A stretch of 30,141 bases of DNA from a virus: positions 1 to 30,141 of IMG/VR virus record IMGVR_UViG_3300030380_002899; one strand, 5' to 3'. The number at the start of each line of letters is the position of its first letter. The stretch's first letter is position 1. Position numbers and translations under genes: made by a program. The notes under the pieces were generated by a model, which saw nothing but the letters and a program-made list of their open reading frames with translations, had not been told where the DNA came from and ran no database searches. Positions 5,155-30,141 of the stretch are shown one piece after another.

Positions 5155-5393
5155 TACTTAACCTCACTTAGTTTGTTTAGTTGATCTCCAACCTGATCTA
5201 TTACTTTTTCAAGTTCATCAGCTTCATCCTGACATTTTTGGACATACAAATTGTAATGTTGCTTCATGGGCTCAGGATGTGCCATATAATGTTTTGATTC
5301 TCTTAATCCATCTATAAAAACACACATTTTTGAATGTTCTTTTTGAAGAATATCAATAATTTGATTTAATTGTTTTTTGTTAAATGTGTTCAT
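5154..5393 (-). CDS. Hypothetical helical protein, 79 aa
   Basis: Not recognised. It reads as two long charged helices (about residues 5-31 and 44-76, the second containing DEADELEKVIDQVGDQL) with heptad-like hydrophobic spacing, so a coiled-coil hairpin is likely. It shares one base with each neighbour (TAATG junctions at both ends), typical of a coupled unit. Confidence 0.65.
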   Translation of the reverse strand: MNTFNKKQLNQIIDILQKEHSKMCVFIDGLRESKHYMAHPEPMKQHYNLYVQKCQDEADELEKVIDQVGDQLNKLSEVK

Positions 5394-5740
5394 TATTTAA
5401 CCTCTGGTGTGAAGTTTTCACTAGTGTTTAAGTTATTAACCAAGTAAGCGGCTAACTCATCCTTTAGACTGTCATCTTTTGATTGTTCGATCTTATCAAC
5501 AATAATCTTAAATACTTCTAATAGATAATCTTTATCTGCTGAGTAGTTAGAAGACAACATTTGAAAGCTAGATAAAATGTCTTTTTTCATTTGCTTATTG
5601 CATAAAGTAATATGCAATACATTTGATTCGTTGCTGATATCTAAAAAAGAACTATATGAACCAAAAGCAAAGTTAACCTTTAGAGTCTCTGTATCTAACT
5701 TTTGTGTGTTAGTTGTTGGGAATAAATTAATTGAGTTCAT
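5393..5740 (-). CDS. Hypothetical protein, 115 aa, first gene of unit 1
   Basis: Not recognised. The first half looks beta-rich (KVNFAFGSYSSFLDIS, NVLHITLCNKQ), the second helical and acidic (LLEVFKIIVDKIEQS). No signal or metal motif. It is the first gene of the five-gene leftward unit next to the terminase region; an AGAG stretch just before ATG may serve as a weak ribosome-binding site. The rightward ORF opposite it is a shadow. Confidence 0.65.
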   Translation of the reverse strand: MNSINLFPTTNTQKLDTETLKVNFAFGSYSSFLDISNESNVLHITLCNKQMKKDILSSFQMLSSNYSADKDYLLEVFKIIVDKIEQSKDDSLKDELAAYLVNNLNTSENFTPEVK

Positions 5741-6118
5741 CTCTGGTATGGAAATAATTTTTATTTGTATTTAGTTAAGTGATCTATAAATGATTAATTG
5801 CTATTAGTCCAGAAGCGAAAGCGAAAGAACCAGGAGCAAGAATTAAAAATAAATAAAAATACTTAACTATTAATAGTATACAGCAAAATTATATAAAAGG
5901 TATATAAGGTTAAAAAAATAATATATATATACTTGCTTAGGCTTTTATGGACCTCTAGTACTTATTTGATACTTGTGTGTGCGTTTTTACCTTTGCTTAA
6001 ACTTGATGACCTTACAAGGCTTTTCAGGTCTATTTCTTAGACTTTTATGGACTAGGGGGGACTGCTAGTGAAAAAAATTTTTTTATATCGTGGACGGGGG
6101 AACTTAAATATATTCTGT
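5741..6118. other. Gap next to terS: candidate packaging (cos/pac) region
   Basis: This 378-nt gap lies between unit 1 and terS. It holds three imperfect direct repeats (5939, 6017, 6039), G6 at 6055-6060, G5 at 6096-6100 and an A7T7 tract at 6071-6084 between the two G-runs. G-runs are rare elsewhere in this genome. Packaging sites are often beside terS, so this is the best candidate in the window. The left part (about 5862-5935) is very A+T-rich with TATA-like boxes facing unit 1 (for example TATACT on the minus strand near 5875-5880). No ORF with a start codon and no RNA gene is seen. Confidence 0.4.
5939..6052 (+). repeat. Three imperfect copies of AGGCTTTTATGGAC
   Basis: AGGCTTTTATGGAC (5939-5952), AGGCTTTTCAGGTC (6017-6030) and AGACTTTTATGGAC (6039-6052). 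The CTTTTATGGAC core is identical in copies one and three, exactly 100 nt apart; copies two and three start 22 nt apart, about two helical turns. Position beside terS suggests binding sites for the small terminase. Confidence 0.55.
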
Positions 6119-6553
6119 TTAATTTTTTGGTTCTACTTTTATGGAAAGTTCAGGAGCTTGAATATTAACTGTTTCTACTGATTCGCCAATTACTTTTCCT
6201 AGGCTATCAAGAATTTGTGCTGCGGTTTGAAGTTGACCTTTTTTAACTGCTTTGTTAAATAGACGGATTCTCATGGCTTGAAGTCGAGGTAGGAGAGCTT
6301 CTCTATCTTTTTCCCAATCTTCGTTATTCCAAACTTTAACTCTATCCCAATCTAGCCATGCGGTAGTTTCAGAGATTCTTTCTATAGTTGAATGTTCTAT
6401 GACTAATTGACGAGTAGTTTTACCCTCTAATTGTCTAGCGTAAAGACGTTGAGAACGTTTTAGGACATCTGATACTGTGGAGCGAGTTCTTTTTTTAGGA
6501 GGATTAGCTAAAGGATTATTGATTATGTTTTCAGGAAAAGAAGATGCAGTCAT
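6119..6553 (-). CDS. terS: Terminase small subunit (putative), 144 aa
   Basis: The small terminase binds the packaging site and delivers DNA to TerL. The layout fits: a basic disordered N-terminus (PPKKRTRSTVS), a helix-turn-helix-like region (about residues 41-75, LEGKTTRQLVIEHSTIERIS), a helical oligomerisation part (about 80-123, KAVKKGQLQTAAQILDSLGK) and a short beta-type C-terminus (VNIQAPELSIKVEP). It is next to terL, which strengthens the call, but it is transcribed in the opposite direction, which is unusual. No good Shine-Dalgarno precedes the ATG. It could instead be a regulator with a similar fold. Confidence 0.65.
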   Translation of the reverse strand: MTASSFPENIINNPLANPPKKRTRSTVSDVLKRSQRLYARQLEGKTTRQLVIEHSTIERISETTAWLDWDRVKVWNNEDWEKDREALLPRLQAMRIRLFNKAVKKGQLQTAAQILDSLGKVIGESVETVNIQAPELSIKVEPKN

Positions 6554-6624
6554 CGTCTTATTGATTAGGTGTATTTAAGTGAATGATAACTTAAAAGTGA
6601 GTAAATAGGCTATAAAGGAGGGGT

Positions 6625-6645
6625 ATGAGTTGTATTTTTTGTTAA
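6625..6645 (+). CDS. Possible six-codon leader ORF before terL
   Basis: The strongest Shine-Dalgarno-like sequence of the region, AAGGAGGGG (6615-6623), serves ATG 6625 and not terL: ATG AGT TGT ATT TTT TGT TAA encodes MSCIFC. It ends 4 nt before the terL ATG. The terL frame has an in-frame TGA at 6626-6628 and no other start between, so terL could be translated by termination-reinitiation. The SD-ATG spacing is short (about 4 nt), so use of this start is uncertain. Confidence 0.25.
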   Translation: MSCIFC

Positions 6646-6649
6646 TTTC

Positions 6650-7912
6650 ATGGTTATAAGTGGAAAAAAACGAGAAGAGATAAGTTTGCGATATGCACAG
6701 GGTGAGGTTTTTAATAGTGATAAAAGATTTAGGGTGCTGGTAGCTGGAAGAAGGTTTGGAAAGAGTTATTTATCTTGTATAGAACTATTGAGAGGAGCTA
6801 TAAATCGTCCTGGTGAGGTTTATTTCTATTGTGCTCCTACTTATAGGATGGCAAAGGACATTGCATGGAAGGAATTGAAGAGGTTGACACCGAAGGTATG
6901 GATTCAAAGCAAGAATGAAACAGATTTAAGGTTGGAATTGATTAATGGTTCAACTATTGAGTTAAAAGGTACTGAAAATGCTATGGCATTGAGAGGTAGA
7001 AGCTTGGCTGGTGTGGTATTGGACGAGGCAGCATTTATGGATAGGGACGTTTGGGCTGAAGTAATAAGACCTGCGTTAGCCGACAAACAAGGATGGGCAC
7101 TGTTTATTTCAACACCAGATGGAACTGCGAGTTGGTTTTATGATATGTGGTGTTATTGCGGTGAGGAGGAATGGAAAGATTGGCAAAGATGGAGTTTTAC
7201 GACTATAGAGGGTGGTAATGTTGCAAAGGAGGAAGTTGAAGCTGCAAGGAGTCAATTAGATGCGAGGACATTTAGACAGGAATTTGAGGCTAGTTTTGAG
7301 AATTTAACTGGATTGGTGGCTGTTAGCTTTGCTGATGACAATATTGATAAGGAAGTACAGGATTTACATTTATTACCTTTGTTAATTGGGCTGGATTTTA
7401 ACGTTGACCCTATGGCAGGAATTTGTGCTGTGAAGCATGATGATATGCTTTATGTTTTTGATGAAATTATGCTTACAGGAGGTGCTACCACATGGGATTT
7501 TGCAGAAGAGGTTACGAGAAGATATGGAGTTGATCGTAGAATTATTGCTTGTCCTGACCCTACTGGAAGTGCAAGAAAGACAAGTGGGGTTGGTGTAACG
7601 GATCATACGATACTAAGACGTAGTGGTTTTACTGTTATGAGTCCTAGAAGCCCCTGGAAAATCAGAGATAAGATTACTGCTGTTAATACTGCCCTGTTTG
7701 ATGCAAATGGTGATAGGAGGACGCTTATACATCCTCGTTGTAAAGAATTGATAAAAGCACTTAGGACATTAACTTATGCACCTAATACAGGTTTACCTAA
7801 TAAGAATTTAGGTGTGGATCATGCGTTTGATGCTTTTGGTTATCTTTGTCTGCAACAATTTAACTTGGCGAAGCCTGAGACACTGGGCCAAACTTCGTTT
7901 AGAATATACTAA
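6650..7912 (+). CDS. terL: Terminase large subunit, 420 aa
   Basis: The ATP-driven motor and nuclease that packages DNA through the portal. Motifs in order: Walker A AGRRFGKSY (residues 32-40, Lys38), Walker B GVVLDEAAF (121-129, Asp125-Glu126), coupling motif FISTPDG (152-158), then an RNase H-like nuclease with acidic residues in LIGLDFNVD (Asp249, Asp253), ACPDP (Asp303) and GVDHAFDAFGYL (Asp390/Asp394). Length is normal for the family. ATG 6650 is the only start in this frame before an in-frame stop, 27 nt from the nearest SD. It is divergent from terS and heads the rightward late block. Confidence 0.95.
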   Translation: MVISGKKREEISLRYAQGEVFNSDKRFRVLVAGRRFGKSYLSCIELLRGAINRPGEVYFYCAPTYRMAKDIAWKELKRLTPKVWIQSKNETDLRLELINGSTIELKGTENAMALRGRSLAGVVLDEAAFMDRDVWAEVIRPALADKQGWALFISTPDGTASWFYDMWCYCGEEEWKDWQRWSFTTIEGGNVAKEEVEAARSQLDARTFRQEFEASFENLTGLVAVSFADDNIDKEVQDLHLLPLLIGLDFNVDPMAGICAVKHDDMLYVFDEIMLTGGATTWDFAEEVTRRYGVDRRIIACPDPTGSARKTSGVGVTDHTILRRSGFTVMSPRSPWKIRDKITAVNTALFDANGDRRTLIHPRCKELIKALRTLTYAPNTGLPNKNLGVDHAFDAFGYLCLQQFNLAKPETLGQTSFRIY

Positions 7913-7928
7913 GATACCCTTTTTGCTT

Positions 7929-8009
7929 ATGGCCTACGGAATGTCAACTACAAAAAAGAAAAAGAAGAAGAAGAAGGGAGGGAAAAAGAGGCATGAATGT
8001 ACCTGTTAA
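7929..8009 (+). CDS. Possible lysine-rich mini-protein, 26 aa
   Basis: ATG 7929 to TAA 8007-8009 encodes MAYGMSTT, a run of eight Lys, then GGKKRHECTC. It lies 16 nt after terL and its end overlaps the next gene by 17 nt. No clear ribosome-binding site is seen, so it may be untranslated; in its favour, four better supported Lys-rich mini-genes follow it. Confidence 0.3.
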   Translation: MAYGMSTTKKKKKKKKGGKKRHECTC

Positions 8010-8166
8010 TAAAGCACTTTATGCAAGAGTAAAAGCTGAAGCCAAACGTAAGTTTGACGTTTACCCCTCTGCCTACGCTAATGCTTGGTTAGTCCGAGAG
8101 TATAAAAAGCGTGGTGGAACTTATAGAGTAGGAAAGAAAAAAAGTGCCACAAAGAAGAAAAAGTAA
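7993..8166 (+). CDS. Lysine-rich mini-protein, 57 aa, of a family common in marine phages
   Basis: Found by translating the gap: ATG 7993 to TAA 8164-8166. The core (KFDVYPSAYANAWLVREYKK, residues 20-39) resembles short proteins I have seen repeatedly in marine phage genomes near terminase genes; the C-terminus is KKKSATKKKK. An AAAGAGG-type ribosome-binding site lies just upstream (GGGAAAAAGAGGC). Function is not established; the charge suggests DNA contact, perhaps inside the capsid. Confidence 0.7.
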   Translation: MNVPVNKALYARVKAEAKRKFDVYPSAYANAWLVREYKKRGGTYRVGKKKSATKKKK

Positions 8167-8425
8167 ACCTACAACAAAGACTAGAGGTGGTTTAGACCGT
8201 TGGTTTAAGGAAAACTGGGTTGATGTTAAGACTGGGAAGCCTTGTGGTCGTCAAAAAGGAGAGAAAAGAGGATATCCTGCCTGTCGTCCTAGTAAACGTG
8301 TATCAAGTAAGACACCTAAGACAACAAAAGAGATGACACCAGCAGAAAAAGCTAGGTTTAAACGAGAAAAAACAAGCAGTAAGAAGATAACATATCAACA
8401 TAGACGAAAAAAGAAGAAAAAATAA
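8144..8425 (+). CDS. Basic protein with conserved Cys/Trp domain (DUF5872-like, from memory), 93 aa
   Basis: Starts with GTG 8144 after GGAAAG, overlapping the previous gene by 23 nt. The core, LDRWFKENWVDVKTGKPCGR then GEKRGYPACRPSKR (about residues 17-51), is a recognisable conserved domain with two Cys; I believe it is the family named DUF5872, also found in large DNA viruses, but that number is from memory. A second conserved part, TPAEKARFKREKTSSKKITYQHRR, precedes a final Lys run. Very basic throughout. Likely nucleic-acid-associated; no experiment-based function is known to me. Confidence 0.75.
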   Translation: MPQRRKSKPTTKTRGGLDRWFKENWVDVKTGKPCGRQKGEKRGYPACRPSKRVSSKTPKTTKEMTPAEKARFKREKTSSKKITYQHRRKKKKK

Positions 8426-8474
8426 GTGAAAATTACAAATTAAAAGGTAAGATAGTGGTATAAGGACTGTAAAA

Positions 8475-8633
8475 ATGAAAGAACTCACGCAAAGACAAAA
8501 AACTGCGTTAGCAAATCATAAAAAGAAGGGAACTCATACTGCACAGCACATGGCAGTTATGAAGAAAGAGATGTTAAAAGGCAAGACATTTACGGAGGCA
8601 CATAGAATAGCCATGAAGAAGAAAGGAAAGTAA
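8475..8633 (+). CDS. Basic mini-protein, 52 aa, His/Lys-rich
   Basis: Found by translating the gap: ATG 8475 to TAA 8631-8633, with AAGGA 8 nt before the ATG. It reads MKELTQRQKTALANHKKKGT then HTAQHMAVMKKEMLKGKTFT and ends KKKGK. The pattern of H-T-x-x-H-M followed by M-K-x-G-K-(T/S)-F-x-x-A-H is a small family I have met in marine phages in this same position. It shares one base with the next start (TAATG). Confidence 0.7.
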   Translation: MKELTQRQKTALANHKKKGTHTAQHMAVMKKEMLKGKTFTEAHRIAMKKKGK

Positions 8634-8902
8634 TGCCACGCAAAAAAGGAGTCAGTTTATCAGTAGGAAGAGGCGAAAAGTCCAAGAAAGGAGGACTGAC
8701 TGCTAAAGGACGAGCAAAGTATAATAGAGCCACAGGAAGTAATTTAAAAGCACCTGTTACAGGCAAAGTAAAACCTGGTAGTAAAGCTGCGAAAAGACGT
8801 AAATCTTTTTGTGCAAGAATGTCTGGTATGCCTGGACCATTAAAAAAACCTAATGGTAAACCCACTAGAAAAGCATTAGCATTAAGGAGATGGAAGTGTT
8901 GA
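8633..8902 (+). CDS. Basic DUF6321-like protein, 89 aa
   Basis: Conserved core KKGGLTAKGRAKYNRATGSN (about residues 18-37) followed by a second conserved part with Cys (RRKSFCARMSG, about 55-65) and PLKKPNGKPTRKALALRRWKC. I recognise this as the family usually named DUF6321 (number from memory), widespread in phages and some large viruses, function unknown. Start is coupled to the gene before it; the stop is 1 nt before the portal ATG. Confidence 0.75.
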   Translation: MPRKKGVSLSVGRGEKSKKGGLTAKGRAKYNRATGSNLKAPVTGKVKPGSKAAKRRKSFCARMSGMPGPLKKPNGKPTRKALALRRWKC

Positions 8903-8903
8903 C

Positions 8904-10433
8904 ATGACTTATTCTTTGCCAGGAATGTTTAATACCAGTATTACTTCTACGACCTATATGGGTGGAAGTGATAGTCCTTTTACTCGTAACAGAGCAGTAT
9001 TGGACATGATAAAGGGATGGGAAATAATGAAAGCTGTTACTGAGGGAACAGAATATCTTCGTGATAATAGTGAAGCTTTTTTACCGCTAGAACCAAGAGA
9101 AGATTTTGATGCCTATAAAGCAAGAGTAAATAGATCTGTCTTCAGTCCTTTTACACAGAGATTAATAAGAGCAGCGACAGGTTTAGTACTTCGTAAACCA
9201 ATAACACTGATAGGAGATCCTTACTGGACAGAGATGTTCAAAATGGATGTTGATGGTTGTAAATCAGATTTAGATGAATATGCAAGAAGATTATTGATGT
9301 GTTCATTAACTTATGGTCAAAGTCATATCCTTGTTGATTACCCTGCACCTTCTGGTGCGGTAAGTCTTGCAGAAGAACGTCAGCAGAATCGCAGGCCATA
9401 TTGGATTGAGATAGATCCAACAAATATCTATGGTTGGAGATTGGATAGAGAATCTAATTATGGAAATCTTATACAGGTAAGGATTGCAGAAAAAGCTGTT
9501 TTACCTGATGGCGAATTTGGTGAAAGCATATACGATCAGATGAGAGTTATAGAACCAGGACGTTATCGTGTTTTCAGAAAAAAAGAAACAGTACAGGACT
9601 TATACGAAGAGAATGATGGTGCTTATTCTGGGGATATGTCTAGTCCAGCAGGTGCGAAAGATTATGAACTGTCCGAATCAGGCCAATTTTCTTTGGGCGA
9701 GATACCTTTGGTCACTGTTTACTCAGGTAAGATTGACAACATGACAAGTAAGCCACCATTACTTGATATTGCATATTTAAACTTAGCTCATTATCAAAGA
9801 CAAGCTGATTTAATTCATAGTCTGCATGTTGCATCTCAACCAATGCTTGTGATGGAAGGTTATGACGATCAGACAAAAGATCTTGCTATATCGGTTAACT
9901 ATGCAATGGCTACACAACCAGGTAACAAAGTTTATTATGTAGAGCCAGCAAGCAGTGCTTTTGATGCTCAATCAGCAGAAATTAAAGAATTACAGATGCA
10001 GATGGCGACTTTAGGTATCAGTACATTATCTCAACAGAAGTTTGTAGCAGAATCTGCTGATGCAAGAAGGTTAGATCGTGTTGATACGAACTCTATGTTG
10101 TCTATGGTTTCTATGGAGTTAGAACAGAAACTACAGAAAGCATTTAATCTATCTGCACAATATGTAGGATTAGAACCACCAGAAGTAAAGATCAGTAGAG
10201 ACTTTGATATTGAAAGATTGATTGGACAGGATATTACAGCATTAACTTCATTGTTTGACCAACAGGTTATTGATAGAGAAGAATTTAGACAGATCCTTGT
10301 ACAGGGTGAAGTTTTACCTGCTGCTAATGAACAAAATGAATCTACTCAAGTGCAGGAAACAGCAAGAAAAGAAGGAGCAACACCAGAGCAGGTAGATAGA
10401 CTAATTAACGCATTAATGAACGATGGCAACTAA
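8904..10433 (+). CDS. Portal protein (DUF4055-type), 509 aa
   Basis: The portal is the ring at one capsid vertex through which DNA enters and to which the tail is joined. The N-terminal part (TEYLRDNSEAFLPLEPREDF, then YKARVNRSVFSPFTQRLIRAATGLVLRKP) matches DUF4055 phage proteins, which take the portal role; the middle has wing/stem-like alternation and the C-terminus is helical and Gln/Glu-rich. Length suits a portal. SD AAGGAG lies at 8884-8889. It overlaps the next gene by 11 nt. Placement between terL and scaffold/capsid genes supports the call. Confidence 0.88.
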   Translation: MTYSLPGMFNTSITSTTYMGGSDSPFTRNRAVLDMIKGWEIMKAVTEGTEYLRDNSEAFLPLEPREDFDAYKARVNRSVFSPFTQRLIRAATGLVLRKPITLIGDPYWTEMFKMDVDGCKSDLDEYARRLLMCSLTYGQSHILVDYPAPSGAVSLAEERQQNRRPYWIEIDPTNIYGWRLDRESNYGNLIQVRIAEKAVLPDGEFGESIYDQMRVIEPGRYRVFRKKETVQDLYEENDGAYSGDMSSPAGAKDYELSESGQFSLGEIPLVTVYSGKIDNMTSKPPLLDIAYLNLAHYQRQADLIHSLHVASQPMLVMEGYDDQTKDLAISVNYAMATQPGNKVYYVEPASSAFDAQSAEIKELQMQMATLGISTLSQQKFVAESADARRLDRVDTNSMLSMVSMELEQKLQKAFNLSAQYVGLEPPEVKISRDFDIERLIGQDITALTSLFDQQVIDREEFRQILVQGEVLPAANEQNESTQVQETARKEGATPEQVDRLINALMNDGN

Positions 10434-11406
10434 AGAAGATCTAAGTTTAGCTCAAGTTACAGCTTTAGTTCGTCTTAAAAATAAAATAGATTCCCTACCA
10501 AAACCTGTTGATGGTAGAGATGGCAAACCTGGAACGCAGGGGCCGACAGGACCAAAAGGTGAAAAAGGTATTCAAGGAGCTAAAGGAGAACAAGGCCCAA
10601 AAGGTAATAAGGGAGATCAAGGTAAGGAAGGACAAAGAGGACCAGCAGGACCACAAGGAGTAAAAGGAGATCCTGGGAATAAAATTATCAGTGGAGCAAA
10701 TCAACCTGAAGCTAATCAGGGAGATGAAGGTGATTTTTATGTACAGAAAAAACCATTAAAGTTTTTTGGTCCTAAAAGATTAGATAACTGGGGTGATGGT
10801 ATTTCTTTGTCTGCCCTGCCTGAAGATGACAAGAAAAGTTCTTTGACGTTAGCAGGAATTTTACCTCAAGGACAAACTGGTACTGGTAGTGGTGCAACTG
10901 TAGAGATAGGAACAACAACTACTGGTAATGCTGGTACAAATGCAAGTGTCACTAATACAGGAACAAGTAGTGCTGCTGTTTTTAACTTTACAATTCCCAG
11001 AGGTGCTAACGGTACAAACGGAACTAACGGTACGAATGGAAGTGATGGAGCAGATGGTGCGGATGGAGCTACTGGTGCTCAAGGCCCAGCAGGTAATGCT
11101 GCAACAGTTGCTATCGGTACAGTGACTACAGGAGCAGCAGGTTCCAGTGCTTCGGTAACAAATGTGGGAACATCAAATGCTGCGGTATTAACTTTTAGTA
11201 TTCCTACGGGTGCAACAGGTGCTGCTGGCTCTGATGGTGCCACTGGAGCACAAGGACCTCAAGGTGATACTGGTCCACAAGGAGCTACTGGGCCACAAGG
11301 ACCTGCTGGTAGTAATGCAACAGTGACTGCTGGTACTGGGATTATAGTAAGTAGTGGTGAAGTATCTATAGACCCTAATGCAACCTTCGATGGTGGTAGT
11401 TTTTAG
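10423..11406 (+). CDS. Collagen-like virion protein, 327 aa
   Basis: Gly-X-Y repeats occupy residues about 31-86, 194-224 and 263-296, enough for three collagen-type triple-helix segments. Between them are two copies of a beta-type module (158-193 and 227-262; shared words ASVTN, GTS, AAV and F-x-I-P) common in phage fibres. The N-terminus (about 1-30) is helical with a Val-Arg-Leu pattern and could be the capsid-anchoring or trimerising part. Position between portal and scaffold, not in the tail block, suggests a head-attached fibre or decoration. Its ATG overlaps the portal end by 11 nt. Confidence 0.8.
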   Translation: MATKEDLSLAQVTALVRLKNKIDSLPKPVDGRDGKPGTQGPTGPKGEKGIQGAKGEQGPKGNKGDQGKEGQRGPAGPQGVKGDPGNKIISGANQPEANQGDEGDFYVQKKPLKFFGPKRLDNWGDGISLSALPEDDKKSSLTLAGILPQGQTGTGSGATVEIGTTTTGNAGTNASVTNTGTSSAAVFNFTIPRGANGTNGTNGTNGSDGADGADGATGAQGPAGNAATVAIGTVTTGAAGSSASVTNVGTSNAAVLTFSIPTGATGAAGSDGATGAQGPQGDTGPQGATGPQGPAGSNATVTAGTGIIVSSGEVSIDPNATFDGGSF

Positions 11407-28177: not shown

Positions 28178-30141
28178 ATGGCCTTAAGAATTAAATTAAA
28201 AAACAGTGTTGTACAGGATAGAGTTCCTACAACATCTGATCTTCCTGAAGTTGGAGAGTTGGCGGTAAATGCCAATATAAATAGTATTGGTGGCTTTATG
28301 CGAGCCAGTGATAATAGTGTTGTAAAGATATTTGGACCTGGCAGTTTATCAACACCTACTGCTACTACATCGGTTTCTGGTATATCAGAACTTGCTACCA
28401 ATAGTGAGACTACAACTGGAACAGCTACAAATAGGGTTGTAACTCCTGCTGGATTAAATGCGGTGACAGTTGCAGAACGTACCACATCAAATACTAACTA
28501 TGTAGCAAAATCTGGCAGCACATTAACAGGTGTATTGACCATGCCTAATGGTTCTAATTCAGCACCTGCTATAAACTTTGGAGATAGCGATAGCGGAATA
28601 TTTGGTGGAACGAATACTGTTAGCTTGGCTGCTGGAGGAACAACAAGATTAACTGCTGACACTGGTGTTGATATAACTGGTACGTTAGCTGTTACTGGAG
28701 CTATTACATCTACAAGTAATCTGACCGTTGCAGAAAAAGTAATTCACGCTGGTGATACAGATACCTTTCTAAGTTTTCCTGCTGCTAATACTGTTTCTAT
28801 TGAAAGTGGCGGTAATGAAGCATTAAGAGTTGATAGTTCACAGCGTCTGCTTGTTGGAACATCTAGCTCAAGAAGTGTTGCTGGAGAATTCTCAAAATTT
28901 CAAATAGAAGTTGGTAATACTGGTGGATTATCTATAACAAGAACTTCTAATGATAATGGAGGTTGTGTATTAGCTCTTGGGAAGACTAGAAATGGTGCAA
29001 TTATACAAGATGACGATATTTTAGGGATTTTAGGTTTTTATGGCGATGATGGTAATGATATAGATCGTCCTGGTGCAGAAATAAGGGGTTTTGTAGATGG
29101 TACACCTGGAACTAATGATATGCCAGGTCGTTTAGAGTTTAAGACAACGGCTGATGGTGCTGCTACTCCTACGACAAGATTAACAATTGACAGCACAGGA
29201 AAGGCTACGTTTACTGTTGATGCAAGTATAAACAGCGTAAACATAGGAAAAGGAGCAAACTCTGTTGCTGGTAACACTGTTCTTGGAGAAAATGCTTTAG
29301 ATGCTGGTGTTACTGGTATAAATAATACTGCTATTGGTAAGGAAGCATTAACAACCAATACTTCTGGTGAAAAGAATGTTGCTGTTGGCAACCAATCTTT
29401 AAAAGATAATACTACTGGTGACCATAATGTAGCTTTAGGTGCTGAAGCACTTTTTGATAATACGACAGGATCAAATAATACTGCTACAGGTTTTTTTGCT
29501 TTAGGTCTTAACACAACTGGTTCTAATAATACAGCGATAGGTTTTGGTGCTTTAGATGCTAGTACCACAGGAAATAAAAACACTGCCATAGGAAGAATGG
29601 CATTGTCAGCTAATACTACAGCACATGATAATACTGCTGTAGGTGGAGATGCACTTCTTGTGAATACAACTGGTACTCAAAACGTAGCGGTGGGAAGTAA
29701 TGCTTTAGATGCTAATACAACAGCTAATAATAATGTAGCCGTTGGTATGAATTCATTGGGAGGTACAACAACTGGTTCTAGTAACGTAGCGGTAGGAAGT
29801 CAATCTTTAAGAACAAATTCTACTGGTCAACAAAATACAGCAGTAGGTAATGAAGCCTTATTGAATAGCACAACTGCTAGTAATAATACTGCAGTTGGTC
29901 ATGCTGCTTTAACATCAAACACAACTGGAGCACAGAACGTAGCCGTAGGAACTTTTGCGTTAGATGCTAATACTACAGCTGAAAATAATACAGGTATAGG
30001 TTATCAAAGTTTAGGTGCTAATACCGAGGGATTTAGTAACACTGCCGTCGGATCACTTTCATTAGATGCTAACACCACAGGTGATTTTAATACTGCCATT
30101 GGTGAAAATGCTTTAAGTGCAAACACAACAGCTGACAATAA
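28178..30141 (+). CDS. Second fibre / adhesin with 17-residue repeats, cut by right edge (654+ aa)
   Basis: ATG 28178 opens a frame with no stop to the window end. N-terminus: ALRIKLKNSVVQDRVPTTSD then LPEVGELAVNAN, a fibre attachment type. The middle (about residues 110-340) holds fibre modules such as APAINFGDSDSGIFGG and LRVDSSQRLLVGTSSS, often found before S74-type chaperone domains. From 29273 it has 17 complete 17-aa repeats, N-(T/V)-A-(V/I)-G-x-x-(A/S)-L-x-x-N-T-T-G-x-x, like the head repeats of trimeric adhesins. It likely forms a trimeric beta-helix reaching the host. The C-terminus is not in the window. Confidence 0.85.
   Translation, partial: MALRIKLKNSVVQDRVPTTSDLPEVGELAVNANINSIGGFMRASDNSVVKIFGPGSLSTPTATTSVSGISELATNSETTTGTATNRVVTPAGLNAVTVAERTTSNTNYVAKSGSTLTGVLTMPNGSNSAPAINFGDSDSGIFGGTNTVSLAAGGTTRLTADTGVDITGTLAVTGAITSTSNLTVAEKVIHAGDTDTFLSFPAANTVSIESGGNEALRVDSSQRLLVGTSSSRSVAGEFSKFQIEVGNTGGLSITRTSNDNGGCVLALGKTRNGAIIQDDDILGILGFYGDDGNDIDRPGAEIRGFVDGTPGTNDMPGRLEFKTTADGAATPTTRLTIDSTGKATFTVDASINSVNIGKGANSVAGNTVLGENALDAGVTGINNTAIGKEALTTNTSGEKNVAVGNQSLKDNTTGDHNVALGAEALFDNTTGSNNTATGFFALGLNTTGSNNTAIGFGALDASTTGNKNTAIGRMALSANTTAHDNTAVGGDALLVNTTGTQNVAVGSNALDANTTANNNVAVGMNSLGGTTTGSSNVAVGSQSLRTNSTGQQNTAVGNEALLNSTTASNNTAVGHAALTSNTTGAQNVAVGTFALDANTTAENNTGIGYQSLGANTEGFSNTAVGSLSLDANTTGDFNTAIGENALSANTTADN
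29273..30139 (+). repeat. 17 tandem 51-bp coding repeats
   Basis: Starting with AAC at 29273, seventeen units of exactly 51 nt end at 30139, and the first two bases of an eighteenth follow. No unit is missing or of a different length. The protein unit is 17 residues (first N-T-V-L-G, last N-T-A-I-G). DNA units differ by many silent changes. Confidence 0.9.

Follow-up and report, generated by a model that had tools for sequence, protein, structure and literature searches.

Where does an uncultured marine phage mark its genome for packaging, and does that mark travel with the gene for the small terminase subunit or with the gene for the large one? The question is raised by a stretch of 30,141 bases (positions 1–30,141 of the virus record IMGVR_UViG_3300030380_002899), the whole of which is called the window here. 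The gene for the large terminase subunit, terL (6650–7912, + strand; phrog_2, PF03237), is followed to the right by the portal, major capsid and tail genes, and the genes to its left, an O-like replication gene among them, form a block that points mostly leftward. The GC skew switches sign within 5250–5750, where the direction of the genes flips. Further along, the interval between terL and the portal gene (7993–8902) encodes four small lysine-rich proteins in a row, the portal gene is directly followed by a gene for a protein with collagen-like GXX repeats (10423–11406), and a long protein with many NTAVG-type repeats (28178–30139) is still open at the end of the window. A preliminary description had placed a candidate packaging site beside a reversed terS, taking a cluster of CTTTTATGGAC repeats as its key feature, together with two G-runs and an A7T7 tract.

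These features are all present in the DNA. The two best repeats lie exactly 100 nt apart (5939–5952 and 6039–6052), within longer copies reading TTGCTTAGGCTTTTATGGAC (5933–5952, + strand) and TTTCTTAGACTTTTATGGAC (6033–6052, + strand); a weaker third, AGGCTTTTCAGGTC, can be read at 6017–6030 (+ strand), and the G-runs (6055–6060 and 6096–6100) and the A7T7 tract (6071–6084) are as described. A further repeat-like match, CTTTTATGGAA (6136–6146, + strand), falls inside terS, where it is the reverse complement of the codons for LSIKVE in the conserved C-terminus of TerS, and is probably coincidental. With at most one mismatch, CTTTTATGGAC has three copies in the window against 0.92 expected, one of the three being those terS codons. 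Because 8 of 100 shuffles also reach three copies, only the clustering of the repeats is notable, and the motif was chosen after being seen. The preliminary description had proposed conservation in relatives as its own test, and here the repeats fail: both copies are confined to the closest relatives, and CTTTTATGGAC was rejected as a conserved motif on this ground and for its near-chance copy number. The A7T7 tract represents the local version of an A/T-rich stretch; an A-run followed by a T-run is common to AT-rich relatives only, and GC-rich relatives do without such a stretch.

The features that are conserved are instead the G-runs with their fixed spacing and an AAC(C/T)TA core. A non-coding element with the order GGGG, 43–44 nt, AAC(C/T)TA is found in well over 100 distinct related contigs, and the window's version of the core is AACTTAAATATAT. 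The first G-box, R1, consists of GGGGGG and the next positions (6055–6070, + strand), its last GGGG starting 44 nt before the AAC. The core itself, GGGGG followed by AACTTAAATATATTC (6096–6115, + strand), is ∼99% conserved in the window's clade and is a candidate for the region of cleavage or nucleation. Apart from the two G-runs, the + strand has no run of five or more G anywhere in the 30,141 bases, and the 19-nt string at 6097–6115 has no second match in the window at up to three mismatches (0.00 expected). Across 114 non-redundant element sequences, the GGGG of R1 is conserved at 89, 100, 100 and 97% by position; a GTTGCA-like motif comes next, in A/T-rich DNA, and GGGNAACTTAAATATAT follows 40 nt past the first G-run at ∼99%. 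Conservation per column rises from about 0.1 bit outside the element to 1–2.9 bits within it. The conserved set was partly picked by the second half of the element, the first G-run and the spacing lying outside that pick, and the loci for the alignment of the region beside terS came from a TerL search alone. The window's own R1 reads GACTGCTAGTG, against a consensus of GTAGTTGCA, and because it departs in this way from the AGTTGCA consensus, the joint pattern GGGGN4GTTG...AACTTAAATATAT has no match in the window. Each record with a match has one copy of the element, which in the window's clade always stands just past the stop codon of the reversed terS, 5–30 nt beyond it.

Known isolates give no counterpart: S-2L, HTVC202P, DSL-LC06, Vibrio 1.242.O, LP.2, P-SCSP2, MED4-184, KBS-S-2A and S-H1 have neither a match to the element nor usable genome ends, and no description of such a site was found in the open-licence literature. 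One of these isolates is P-SCSP2, a T7-like podovirus of Prochlorococcus whose terminase is its own, of the gp19 type; small genes between its scaffold and capsid genes share 79.5% DNA identity with positions 8022–8338 of the window, an apparent exchange between unlike cyanophages.

The position of the element relative to the terminase genes could be followed in 121 loci chosen by TerL alone. Relatives at 90–99% TerL identity occur in at least 80 IMG/VR contigs, and the wider search reached relatives at 71–85% identity. In 96 of the 121 loci the core is found upstream of terL and on its strand; one locus has it on the other strand, and one and one have it downstream; where a GGGG accompanies the core, it stands 42–45 nt before the AAC in 86 of 91 cases. 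The pattern used missed the core in 25 loci, some of which have visible variants of it (L273, L287, L301). In these relatives terS is either reversed, upstream of terL, or forward, in which case it may lie directly upstream, ∼1 kb upstream or downstream of terL. The element is kept where terS is forward ∼1 kb upstream (8/8) or downstream of terL (2/2), and also where it is forward directly upstream. In the TerL tree the reversed terS is nested among forward forms and the arrangement of terS has changed several times; the simplest history has six label changes with the outgroup included, a number that is uncertain, several forks being weakly supported. The element thus tracks terL rather than terS, and since it stays with terL through the moves of terS, it is not incidental to the terS coding sequence or to a terminator of that gene.

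A second G-box, R2, becomes visible at loci where no terS intervenes. It follows the core in 20 of the 23 such loci that have R1 and the core, lying at 39–45 nt in 18 of them (mode 42), at 47 nt in one and at 59 nt in one. R2 reads GGGGGNAGGGGTT and the first box GGGGGNAGGGTTGC; as direct repeats they score a mean of 9.9 of 14, against 6.2 when inverted, with p ≤ 0.05 in 9 of 19 loci, a moderate similarity. In the window, an R2-like G-box, GGGGTATGAGTTG, is located at 6620–6632 (+ strand), shortly before terL; GGGGNNNNAGTTG has its sole exact match in the window there, and with one mismatch is no commoner than chance. In 34 of 79 relatives the position of the best R1-profile match is about −30 relative to terL; of the 79 loci of the window's clade, only 17 have a match near terL that beats all shuffles. 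The window's lineage thus has its reversed terS between the core and the R2-like box, at which the R2 match is weaker. The spacer between terS and terL (6554–6649 in the window, and in relatives) also contains a conserved ATAACYT...GGCTATAAA block, perhaps a promoter.

The terS-like gene (6119–6553, − strand) encodes a product of 144 aa, predicted to consist of a helix-turn-helix (HTH) domain and a long helical hairpin. The product has no family match in Pfam, PHROGs or NCBIfam and no match by sequence to solved structures, and a search for TerS in phage records found none. In an AlphaFold2 model (19 relatives; mean pLDDT 78), the third of three HTH helices extends into a long helix, which is followed by a closing helix. 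Fold searches returned HTH domains alone from the PDB, at E > 1, and, with an earlier model against a viral library, a few proteins named small terminase among weak matches. The gene lies close to terL in several arrangements, and from position, size and predicted fold we infer that it may encode TerS; as a location, ‘beside terS’ was correct, and the name of the gene is to be read as putative, with no family match behind it. A TerS of the SF6 type recognises DNA that is bent and shows little specificity for the local sequence (PMC4737164), and recognition of this kind would fit the weakly conserved boxes. In three relatives (L265, L268, L274) a GC-rich hairpin and then a T-run, likely a terminator, follow the reversed terS; window-like phages are without it.

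Repeats of another kind vary with the type of TerS. Related phages with the same TerS type as the window carry other short units in place of CTTTTATGGAC, such as GGACTT, CAGACTT and CGGACTT, each phage having its own uniform unit (ATGGACTT, CAGACTT, CGGACTT). Arrays of the GGACTT type stand to the left of the first G-box in 64 loci with the SDVLKR or VQKR type of TerS, which have means of 2.5 and 4.1 copies, respectively; among 124 loci with the two other large types of TerS they are practically missing. At L022 and L239, for which no neighbouring left gene was found, the association holds as well. This pattern fits arrays that follow TerS specificity, with shared ancestry as a possible confounder.

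Taken as a whole, the element is probably the packaging-initiation site of the phage, whether pac-like or cos-like. The preliminary description was thus probably right about the place and the kind of site and wrong about the repeats as its key feature: it is the conserved G-runs and core that track terL, and the CTTTTATGGAC repeats are restricted to the closest relatives. The site would consist of R1, a core ∼43 nt downstream in which AAC(C/T)TA comes after a G/C-rich patch, and R2, all upstream of terL and on its strand. Oligomeric TerS, with its HTH and helical hairpin, would bind R1 and R2 and, in the window's sublineage, additionally the extra GGACTT-type repeats. The bound TerS would position TerL, which would cut at or near the core, and packaging would run rightward, beginning with the terL DNA. 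The reversed terS gene of the window's clade would lie inside the site, between the core and R2. Conservation, spacing, strand, single copy, independence from the place of terS and absence from the sampled host-genus genomes are observed, whereas the identity of TerS, its binding, the cut at the core and the direction of packaging are inferred.

The contigs themselves bear on the mode of packaging. The relative G002 (36,321 nt) starts 30 nt from the element and covers the left genes round to the capsid gene, and because of this start point and run of genes, the phage genome map is indicated to be circular and about 42–43 kb long. G001 and G002 share one circular map and start at different places on it, and contigs traverse the site; a search for terminal repeats found none. 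True left contig ends lie near the element in 2 of 45 cases, with no pile-up, and contig ends were rejected as evidence for cos as not convincing. If the samples are viromes, the absence of a pile-up argues against cos with short overhangs. G001 encodes an Erf-like annealing protein, which would agree with terminally redundant DNA such as that of P22. Given that no contigs break at the site and that this annealing protein is present, headful packaging appears slightly favoured over cos.

A conserved non-coding element upstream of a late gene could also serve transcription, as a late promoter or operator of terL regulated by the HTH protein that is here called terS. The element is strand-specific, lies upstream of terL and has an HTH protein encoded nearby, and the conserved block in the terS–terL spacer could be a separate promoter. 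A role in transcription is nevertheless unlikely: the element is single copy per record, its conserved boxes 43 nt apart are unlike a simple promoter, and in the window's clade ∼540 bp, including the reversed terS, separate the core from terL. No sigma-70-like site above chance is found, and the core does not occur in 81 genomes of the host genus except on a phage contig.

A replication origin, with the G-boxes or the GGACTT repeats acting as iterons, is more doubtful again. Repeats do lie beside an A+T-rich stretch, the skew changes sign at about 5250–5500, and the O-like replication gene belongs to the same leftward block. However, the skew change coincides with the flip in gene direction, 5 kb separate the element from the O-like gene, the iteron-like repeats, unlike the core, are lineage-specific, and the core follows terL through rearrangements.

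An element acting in the transcript, either as a terminator of the reversed terS or as a structured RNA, is very improbable. In the window's clade its location, 5–30 nt past the stop of terS, would suit such a role, but the element stays in place where terS sits elsewhere, and the rearranged relatives largely refute it; in some GC-rich relatives terS is followed by a separate hairpin and T-run. Single loci hinted at stem-loops with a G-rich loop, and dyads spotted by eye, GTAACAAATGTTAC among them, differ between lineages. In the alignment of 114 sequences the consensus energy is 0 on either strand, with no convincing covariation. There is no consensus RNA fold on either strand, no Rfam match and no terminator-like site, and both an RNA structure and a terminator were rejected. 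A phage attachment site, attP, is barely credible: the element is non-coding, single copy and at a boundary of gene modules, but there is no tRNA in the window, no integrase is among ten G001 proteins scanned, and a matching host site was rejected on finding the core in 81 Prochlorococcus-genus genomes on the phage contig only, while a reversed control pattern occurs 13 times.

The probable packaging site resembles two well-known systems in part. In the case of the Bacillus phage SPP1, pacC is flanked by pacL and pacR, which are bound by TerS (PMC6316719), and the element likewise has a central site between two boxes at the terminase genes. The TerS of SPP1 is an HTH protein (PMC6316719, PMC4737164), and an HTH is predicted for the terS-like product. 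In SPP1, pac extends over promoters and over the beginning of the phage's own terS gene, unlike the element, which is separate from a terS that can be reversed or elsewhere; cleavage is established for SPP1, and at the present site it would take place at or near the core. In lambda-like phages, the R sites of cosB follow TerS specificity (PMC4669245), and cos (cosQ–cosN–cosB) is similar in that the sites flanking a conserved core differ with the type of TerS, and in being a site of about 100–200 bp upstream of terL (PMC4669245). In contrast with these phages, contigs here run through the site without a break, and no R3–IHF–R2–R1 arrangement is identified. Among cultured phages, the Prochlorococcus and Synechococcus phages MED4-184 and MED4-117 (uvMED group G2), KBS-S-2A and S-H1 are cyanophages of 38–41 kb (PMC3861242) with a distantly related major capsid protein (28–33% identity). 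The element was not found in MED4-184, KBS-S-2A and S-H1, in which terL is not preceded by such an arrangement.

The host is probably Prochlorococcus, because an element-bearing contig of 41,291 nt belongs to the single-cell genome Prochlorococcus sp. AG-418-M08. Relatives of the window's terL also occur in metagenome-assembled genomes (MAGs) labelled SAR202, Sphingobacteriales, Verrucomicrobiota and Planctomycetota (L326–L330), which are probably wrongly binned phage contigs.

Packaging sites have been mapped mostly for cultured phages, and the signature described here, boxes with a fixed spacing on the terL strand that are kept through relocations of terS, gives a testable coordinate in an uncultured marine group. 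Tentatively, and with somewhat less assurance than an even case would warrant, it may represent a new architecture of packaging signal in a large clade of uncultured, probable cyanophages: G-boxes ∼43 and ∼42 nt to either side of an AAC(C/T)TA core, held upstream of terL while terS moves, which in one sublineage would have been split by a reversed terS, with new repeats that go with the type of TerS arisen beside it. If this is true, existing virome reads would allow genome ends and the mode of packaging to be assigned, and in gene order the packaging site would be separable from terS.
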